A DNA stretch of 64,000 nt from assembly GCA_037576195.1 (NCBI GenBank), contig CM075102.1, forward strand, positions 13,574,745 to 13,638,744, given 5' to 3'. The position numbers were made by a program, and so were the translations under genes. The DNA comes from Phytoseiulus persimilis (taxonomy: Eukaryota > Arthropoda > Arachnida > Mesostigmata > Phytoseiidae). The notes under the pieces are model-generated. The model worked only from the letters and a program-made list of their open reading frames with translations, was not told where the DNA came from and did no database searches. Every line of letters begins with the position of its first letter. Positions within the stretch are counted from its first letter, which is position 1. Shown piece by piece: positions 45,743-48,700 of this stretch.

Positions 45743-48700
45743 ATGAGGCGGGATTTCGTCAAGATCGAACTCAACCGGGCCTCGTGGGAGGTGCCCTCCT
45801 GTTACGTCGATCTGCAGGCCATCGGGGCTGGGGCGTACGGCCAAGTGTGGTGAGTCGAGTGCTTCAAGGCCGCTGGGAAGAACACAGACAAGTACTTATT
45901 CGCACACCTTCAGCGGCCTGCTTTATGAAGTTGGATTTTGCCCGATCTATTACGGTGTTCAGGACCGCGTTGGTTTTTTTCGCGAACTAGGAAGATAGAA
46001 CCGGACTCAAGGCAGACAGAGCTTCGGCAAATCTCGATATGTTCTCTTTCTGTAGCGAGAGTCTCAACTGAGCGGGGAAAGTTGGAAACACCGATGGAGT
46101 AGTCGCGGACAATGAATCAACGCGGCACTACGAAAGGGAGCTTGGAAGTTTTGAGCATTGAGCGTCCGTGCTTGCCTCGTTTAGACTTTTGGGGATTATC
46201 TTATCAACTAAACCTTATTCCGCATCGATGACCTCTCCGTTGATGTTTTGAAGTTGCGCTCTACCCTATCGAGTCCTAGACATGAAGCGCGCGAATAATA
46301 TCTCAAGTTAATCTCCAGTTCGGCGTTCTGCACGAGACGAAGCGAGGCCGTTGCGATCAAGAAGCTGTCGAGGCCGTTCCAGAGCGCAGTACACGCCAAG
46401 CGCACGTACCGTGAGATCTTTCTACTCCGCCACATGCAGCATGAAAATGTGAGACTCAAGCTCATGTTGCATCTTTTTGTGAACTCTTTGTTGAAGCAGC
46501 GGAATTTCGCGGCGAAAATTTTGGCTGAGTTACCCGAGCATGATTCCAGGTGATCGGCCTGCTGGACCTCTTTTCGCCGGCGACAAGTATAGGTACTTTC
46601 CAGGACGTGTACCTGGTGAATCATAAGATGGGATCTGATTTGAATAACATCATAAAGACTCAGAAACTGCATGGAGAGCACATCCAGTTTCTAATCTATC
46701 AGATTCTCCGAGGTCTGAAGTATATACATTCGGCCGGGATCATTCACAGGGTATGTTTAGATAGTTGGTGCAACGACCGCCGAAACCATCGTCCCGCGAT
46801 TATTGTACCTTCCCTCTGAACACGTAATAAGAGACCTCATCAACAATACCTTTGTATCTCACCCGGTCGACTCCTTAACTGGTGTAAACTACGCTGCCGT
46901 GGCACGTTCCACCACATTGCGTAAATTATCCGCTCCGAACACGCGTGGCGTAACAGCAGAATTCGCCAATAAACTCGCCTGAGCGTTACTGGCGGTCCAG
47001 GCGCAACCACATACAACTGATGGGACCGCATCAGGCTTGCATGAGCTCGTCGCTGAACTCATAGATTGAATGTGAACAAGGCAGGACCGTCGAGCAGACC
47101 CATCAGGGATCTAATAATCCAACATGAATGAGGGTCGCCTTCCAGGATTTGAAACCCTCGAACATTGCCGTTAACGAGGATTGCGAATTGAAAATCCTCG
47201 ATTTCGGCCTGGCGAGACAAGCTGAGTTCGAAATGACGGGCTACGTCGCCACGCGATGGTACCGGGCGCCTGAAATCATGCTCAATTGGATGCGATATTC
47301 GCAAACCGGTAGGTTCTAAATAAATGTCGGCCGCAGATGGCCCGGAATTGAGAACTCCGGGAATATCGACCTTCGGTCGGACCTCCTAGGGTCGATAAGT
47401 TTCATGTACATTGTTCGTTTCCGTATTCTGAAAACCGGTCTCTCAAAGAGACTCCACGAGACATGACTGCTCAGAGCAGCATTCATGAGAAATATAACGA
47501 GATGAATTCTCATTGATTCCGTTTCAACTTACTCGCTTCAGTCGACATCTGGTCCGTCGGCTGCATAATGGCGGAGCTGATCACGTCGAAAACTCTGTTC
47601 CCGGGGAACAATCGTAAGCGAGCTCATATTATCATCATGTCCCTCCGAGTCCCTGTGTTTCCTTTTCCCGCGATCAGCCTCGGTGCTGCTAAAAATCTGA
47701 GGAGCGCTACCCATACCAGTTTCAAGGGAGTTTCGAGCATGCCCCTGTCTAACACCATTCAAGAATAGTGCTTCGCTTGACTCACGCAATGCTCGAACTT
47801 TTCTCCTAAGAGTCAGACAAGTCGATAGGTCATTTTTCCGATGAACAACTAATAGCATCCGCGTGCTCCCTCTCCAGACATACACCAACTTAACGTGATC
47901 ATCAAGCATCTAGGGACTCCATCTGAGGAGTTCATAAATCGAATTTCATCTGAGAGCGTAAGTTAACCTTCCTTGGGAACCCCGTTCTCAAACATAATGA
48001 GGCGCATCGCTCGAACTCGTTCGGGAGTCGTGTTTCCGTGGAGAGTCGGAGTTCGCAGCAGCGAGCCGTAGTCTAGTGATTAACATAGACTTCATCCAGT
48101 AAACACAGCAACGATGATGACCTCGAGATGTTTGGGTTGGAGATGGTCTTGCCAGTGTTACTAGAGTGTTACTTTGATTTACTTTCATCGTGCGATATCC
48201 GTGGGTTCAGTGTGATTTTCGTATGATCTTCATTTGATCGCTGCACGACACTTGCCGGGCTTCCATTTAACACGAGAAAACGAGCCCTGTGACGGGTCGC
48301 CCAAATTCTCAAACACTCCCCCTGAAACACTCTTAGATATCGACCAGCTGACGAAGATCATGCAAATCACCGGAACCCCTGGCGAAAGGCTGTTGCTGAA
48401 GATGCAGTCTGAAGAGGTAAAGCTCCCGTGAGCAAATTTCTTGCAGACACAGATATCTACGAGAAGTCCCTCCGCGGTATCTTGTTCCGTTTTCTTCCTG
48501 TCTCCACGAGCGATGGTTCGAGTCGTACTCTCTCTATCACGGATGTCGGTGGGCAGTGGATGTCCTTGAGAAAAAGGCCTGAAGTCGGAAAAAACATCGA
48601 GATTGTCATCACCTTGTTCTTGTTCATCTAGAATGACGTAATGTTGCTCGGAAAACTATGCATCGCAGTGAGGCTGAGCTACAGATCTCAGACCGTTGCG

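Follow-up and report, generated by a model that had tools for sequence, protein, structure and literature searches.

The human splice variants CSBP1 and CSBP2 are told apart by an internal stretch of 25 aa (PMC6205964), and the functional difference between them, like those among vertebrate p38 kinases in this region, is in our judgement poorly explained. A p38 MAP kinase gene of the mite Phytoseiulus persimilis in which one coding exon is present in two versions raises the questions of whether the two exons form a mutually exclusive pair at the same position of the kinase, whether such a pair shares its origin with the vertebrate one or was duplicated independently, and what the choice between them would do to the protein.

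The window, that is, the whole 64,000-nt stretch of DNA that was analyzed, is part of a 52-Mb contig in the 181-Mb P. persimilis genome and carries the gene at 45743-49395 on the (+) strand. The genome gave at least 112 matches to Chitin_bind_4, a cuticle-protein family that marks arthropods, against none in 14 control genomes; the controls named are prokaryotes, and the comparison thus does not tell arthropods from other animals. The gene model comprises nine coding exons, one of them in two versions, separated by introns that are all of the GT-AG type, and it specifies a protein of 354 aa that contains the TGY, HRD and DFG motifs with either alternative exon (Table 1). The TGY motif in exon 4 and the closest structural matches, which were p38s, place the protein in the p38 family: it aligned with p38 alpha at 65 percent identity, and the best 60 of 229 matches in a PDB search were p38 alpha (MAPK14) chains, with a best E value of 2.9e-159.

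Table 1. Features of the P. persimilis p38 gene, in window coordinates.
Feature	Position	Strand	Basis
Exon 1, start codon and P-loop	45743..45849	+	gene model, p38 alpha homology
Exon 2	46319..46448	+	gene model
Exon 3, gatekeeper position and catalytic HR	46550..46750	+	gene model, alignment
Exon 4, DFG and TGY activation loop	47146..47308	+	gene model, alignment
Exon 5, constitutive, upstream of the choice; last base is the first base of a His codon	47542..47613	+	gene model
Alternative exon 6a, 80 nt, 27 residues including the shared His codon	47878..47957	+	gene model, PDB search
Intron between 6a and 6b, 379 nt	47958..48336	+	gene model
Alternative exon 6b, 80 nt, 27 residues including the shared His codon	48337..48416	+	gene model, PDB search
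Exon 7, constitutive, downstream of the choice	48821..48899	+	gene model
Exon 8, common docking region	49007..49180	+	gene model, alignment
Exon 9 and stop codon	49337..49395	+	gene model

An earlier note on this DNA had described two tandem exons of 80 nt that encode alternative versions of one 27-residue segment in the same phases, and the gene model confirmed both exons at the positions given in Table 1. Exons 6a and 6b have GT-AG borders, are entered in the same phase and end at a codon boundary; either of them completes the His codon split at the end of exon 5 and then joins exon 7 at 48821, and the four junctions proposed in the note (47613-47878, 47613-48337, 47957-48821 and 48416-48821) are all correct in the model. 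As tandem homologous exons of equal length and phase, whose length is not a multiple of three, they have the make-up of a MAPK14-type pair. The note's further claim that the use of both exons or of neither would break the frame also held: when both were included, translation met a stop five codons into 6b, and when both were skipped, it met a stop in exon 8. We predict that each productive p38 mRNA most likely takes one of the two exons, in a mutually exclusive manner.

The two exons are identical at 35 of 80 nt and at 11 of 27 residues, and the two 27-residue segments score 54 with the BLOSUM62 matrix. Among all 127,834 windows of 27 residues in the six frames of the 64 kb, scored for their likeness to 6a, the highest values were 129 for 6a itself, 45 for 6b (taken here as a window without the shared His) and 30 for the runner-up; the likeness of 6a and 6b can therefore not be attributed to chance. 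No third copy of the segment was found within the p38 gene.

We then placed the pair relative to the vertebrate one. The swapped segment aligned without gaps with p38 alpha, and it covered the counterpart of residues 230-254 of human p38 alpha, in line with the note, which had set the pair at the position of the human CSBP1/CSBP2 choice; the solved salmon p38a chain 3oht has a CSBP1-type segment over the same stretch. For the human protein we take these residues to be the limits of the swapped sequence, and we likewise assume the phase of the human exon; the segment itself presumably comprises helix G and the opening part of the MAPK insert. The human CSBP1 stretch, entered as a provisional sequence, aligned gaplessly with salmon 3oht and shared 54 of 61 residues with it, and the human p38 alpha chains were of the other type. 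The CSBP2/CSBP1 choice of human and fish MAPK14 (exons 9a/9b) thus resembles that of the mite in concerning the same kinase and the same segment in two homologous versions, and it differs in that the mite is an arthropod for which a single p38 gene was found and whose two versions share 11 of 27 residues. MAPK14 has been listed among the genes with homologous-exon isoforms, both of its forms having been solved (1R39 and salmon 3OHT), and according to the same report all 60 detected homologous-exon events were present in one or more of five distant vertebrates and are therefore 460 My old or older (PMC4465641).

Vertebrates have four p38 genes, and the difference in this segment between p38 gamma and delta on the one hand and p38 beta (MAPK11) on the other lies between genes, whereas in the mite it lies between exons of one gene. 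A genome search with the isoform-6b protein gave at least 117 matches, of which six were the window's own p38 exons. Ten regions were read in detail and comprised four ERK-like loci (TEY), two JNK-like loci (TPY) and four kinases that are more remote, L019 among them, which gave no alignment across the activation motif; the activation loops of five further loci (30-39 percent identity) contained no TGY. No second p38 gene was found among these ten regions and five activation loops, and the p38 of the window is the only one among the kinase loci read in the genome. Nor was there a second copy of the helix-G segment in the six other MAPK loci (four ERK-like and two JNK-like), where the best secondary match had an E value of 0.12, whereas the same duplicate scan recovered 6b in the p38 gene at an E value of 0.003.

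Three of the ERK-like loci (L013, L014 and L015) lie within about 23 kb of each other on contig C1, at ~3.93-3.95 Mb, and the fourth (L016) lies on contig C3 at ~25.68 Mb, which suggests an expansion of ERK in this lineage. The JNK-like loci, L017 (C3, ~30.02 Mb) and L018 (C4, ~9.70 Mb), are unlike p38 in that their helix-G segment is intronless. The JNK genes (MAPK8-10) are likewise MAPKs with a C-lobe segment swapped by exclusive exons, slightly upstream of the p38 one; no duplicated segment was found in L017 or L018. The viral and prokaryote collections contained no animal p38, and yielded one weak viral locus (L023, 34 percent) and one Nonomuraea locus (L024, 23 percent).

To which vertebrate version each mite exon corresponds was not settled by similarity. 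With its shared flanks, 6b matched p38 gamma (56.5 bits), p38 beta (55.6), salmon p38a (52.5) and human p38 alpha (52.3) in the PDB, and 6a with its flanks had p38 alpha as its top PDB match (among the best 60 of 229). The raw BLOSUM scores of 6b were 77 to CSBP2, 77 to gamma, 72 to beta, 70 to CSBP1, 69 to salmon and 69 to delta, and raw similarity thus failed to separate CSBP1 from CSBP2. A column-swap test of orthology between 6a and CSBP2 and between 6b and CSBP1 was not significant (p = 0.33), and neither were five alternative pairings (p = 0.27-0.56; gamma in place of CSBP1, 0.37; delta, 0.28; beta/gamma, 0.56; beta/delta, 0.52); a p value of 0.04 was obtained only with a version that used a provisional fly segment. 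In the column test, the human CSBP2/CSBP1 pair matched beta/gamma (p = 0.002), and with delta in place of gamma the value was 0.21.

The tree analysis was chosen after the column-swap test had given no support. The base set consisted of 13 segments from the window, from the ERK- and JNK-like loci of the genome and from PDB chains, aligned over 27 columns; the enlarged set added human CSBP1, two fly p38s and Hog1, all as provisional sequences. In the unconstrained maximum-likelihood (ML) tree of the base set, 6b fell into a group with gamma, delta and the CSBP1-type segment of salmon, and a tree constrained to unite 6a and 6b was 11.0 log units worse, which was not significant by the AU test (p = 0.105). 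In the enlarged set, provisional sequences included, a mite-only duplication was 14.4 log units worse (AU p = 0.019), and forcing the arthropod and vertebrate segments apart gave an AU p of 0.014. Across 15 settings that varied model, taxa or columns, two of them being the base cases, the tree with an ancient duplication led every time, by 3.9-14.4 log units; its lead was lowest, at 3.9, when columns 12, 23 and 27 were removed, and these three carry much of the signal. Data simulated under a mite-only duplication never attained the observed difference, whether for the base set (0 of 160 replicates, maximum 3.6) or for the enlarged set with its provisional sequences (0 of 160, maximum 3.9); of the data sets simulated under the ancient tree, 79 of 100 did. 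Such simulations are liberal when the model is imperfect. In the same trees the ERK segments fell next to p38 beta and 6a next to JNK, and neither 6a nor beta was joined to CSBP2; the trees are on this account unreliable in some of their parts.

The strongest competitor of a shared origin is an independent, convergent duplication in the arthropod lineage, after which 6b would have come to resemble CSBP1 by similar selection or by chance. The equal exon boundaries do not discriminate between the two origins, because a duplicated exon keeps the old positions of its flanking introns. The AU value of the base set and the column-swap result are both compatible with convergence, as is the higher score of 6b to CSBP2 than to CSBP1, and 27 columns are too few to guard against convergent likeness; a study of human tandem duplicated exons reportedly found examples of convergence across vertebrates, arthropods and nematodes. 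Against it stand the lead of the ancient tree in every setting, the failure of all simulations of either set to reach the observed difference, and the AU value of 0.019 obtained once the provisional sequences were included. Taken together, we regard convergence as a serious but rather doubtful explanation, and the view that the 6a/6b pair predates the arthropod-vertebrate split as somewhat the more probable one, favoured but not proven. The trees and simulations likewise lean towards a descent of 6b from a CSBP1-type exon, which the AU value of 0.105 and the column p of 0.33 leave undecided.

If the duplication is ancient, the p38 genes of vertebrates may be read in its light. The ML trees placed the segments of p38 gamma and p38 delta (MAPK12 and MAPK13) together with 6b and the CSBP1-type segment of salmon, which suggests that these two kinases have the 6b/CSBP1 version; in that case the duplication would predate the split of the vertebrate p38 genes, because MAPK14 keeps both versions. 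A fuller account would be that alternative exons existed in one p38 gene before the protostome-deuterostome split, that in vertebrates gamma and delta fixed the 6b/CSBP1 version and beta the 6a/CSBP2 version while alpha kept both, and that arthropods like P. persimilis still splice several p38 types from one gene. This account, with its part on beta, is given lower odds because the trees join neither beta nor 6a to CSBP2, and we offer it tentatively, as a scenario that falls slightly short of an even chance. If true, it would be a clear case of alternative splicing preceding gene duplication.

Whatever their origin, the two copies are old. Silent sites between 6a and 6b are saturated (pS 0.97, against a pN of 0.45), and the similarity of the flanking intron is no longer clear, with 13 of 30 bases alike upstream and 9 of 30 downstream. 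By contrast, of 26 codons, 13 agree at position 1, 16 at position 2 and 5 at position 3 (Fisher p = 0.003). A neutral copy would also have lost positions 1 and 2, and both exons have therefore been held by selection at the protein level; judged by this codon pattern, 6a and 6b are both long constrained. This bears on a second alternative, according to which the pair is real but serves dosage control, the inclusion of both exons or of neither feeding nonsense-mediated decay while the protein difference is minor. Judged from exon lengths and translations, both off-pattern stops do lie more than 50 nt before the last junction. However, 16 of the 27 residues differ while the catalytic elements are kept, this difference is old and constrained, and a plain poison exon would have no need of a second coding version, all of which makes dosage control an improbable main role. 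Least probable of all is that 6b (or 6a) is a relic, dead or barely used, with a single relevant isoform: no YTNAY branch-point motif lies in the 60 nt before the 6b acceptor, whereas 6a has CTAAT at -26, but the constitutive intron 2 likewise lacks a match, the donors of both exons fit the 9-base consensus at 6 of 9 positions, splice sites, 80-nt length and frame are intact in both, and identity at codon positions 1 and 2 still amounts to 56 percent (29/52) despite near-total silent divergence, a pattern that makes a dead second copy unlikely.

With these alternatives weighed, we consider it probable that 6a and 6b are a mutually exclusive pair equivalent to CSBP2/CSBP1 of MAPK14, which would tune the activation of the kinase and its C-lobe partners. 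The choice would exchange helix G together with the initial portion of the MAPK insert, both in the C-lobe, and would leave the ATP site, the activation loop and the main docking groove unchanged. The swapped surface would be that on which the activating MAP2K places its helix G: MEK1 uses this helix to dock on the ERK2 MAPK insert, and the MKK6-p38 alpha complex has been described as similar (PMC12871702); the MAPK insert is also reported to form a lipid-binding site (PMC5406204). The same surface may be tied to autophosphorylation, as in mammalian p38 beta, whose autophosphorylation has been assigned to helix G plus the MAPK insert (Beenstock 2014, in PMC4847175); some spontaneous autophosphorylation is described as a rare trait among MAPKs, shown by p38 beta and by the JNK2 alpha2 splice form (PMC10458722). 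The switch could thus tune activation between a basal or autoactivated mode and a MAP2K-dependent one, and could also set which C-lobe partners the kinase accepts. That exon choice sets both activation mode and partner choice is, in our analysis, the most likely function, and the regulation of substrate or partner choice to which the earlier note had pointed is plausible. In a mouse survey, the mutually exclusive exons of Mapk14 were stated to affect activity and substrate specificity (PMC1431701). Human CSBP1, but not CSBP2, is reported to complement yeast hog1 (Kumar 1995), whereas PMC6205964 gives the reverse assignment; the point on which they agree is that the two forms differ.

How the choice might be made was also considered. 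Human MAPK14 has been called U12-regulated (PMC12637451), whereas none of the nine introns listed for the mite gene matched simple U12 donor or branch motifs, and an incompatibility of U2 and U12 sites was accordingly rejected as the mechanism of exclusion. Steric exclusion was rejected as well, the intron between 6a and 6b being longer than the 101- and 107-nt introns of the same gene. For RNA pairing between introns, 20, 2 and 10 of 60 shuffles were at or below the observed energy in the three pairs taken individually, without correction, and none stands out. With donors of equal match and a branch-point motif found for 6a only, one guess would be that 6a is the default, that 6b is in need of help and that decay clears the double and empty products. 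In a table of duplicated exons regulated by U2AF, exon 9a of human MAPK14 is entered under repression and exon 9b under activation, and changes in branch points and pyrimidine tracts are described as well (PMC5224494).

Among the literature matches listed, none reported a p38 exon pair in an arthropod by its title or the opening of its abstract, and a prior mention is possible. If the pair is conserved in an animal with one p38, such an animal would be a simple system for removing each form separately.

Two further observations concern the gene and its surroundings. At the gatekeeper position of p38 alpha, which we take to be Thr106, the 354-aa mite protein has an Asn (N103, in exon 3; VYLVNHKMG as against VYLVTHLMG). 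To our knowledge an Asn at this position is unusual among p38s, and it may bear on inhibitors of the ATP site. Elsewhere in the window, the open frames at 32766-34421 (-), 29680-31251 (+), and 4278-5078 and 8231-8869 (-) gave matches to the carboxylesterase, SWIB/MDM2, KIF21A-like and kinesin motor families.
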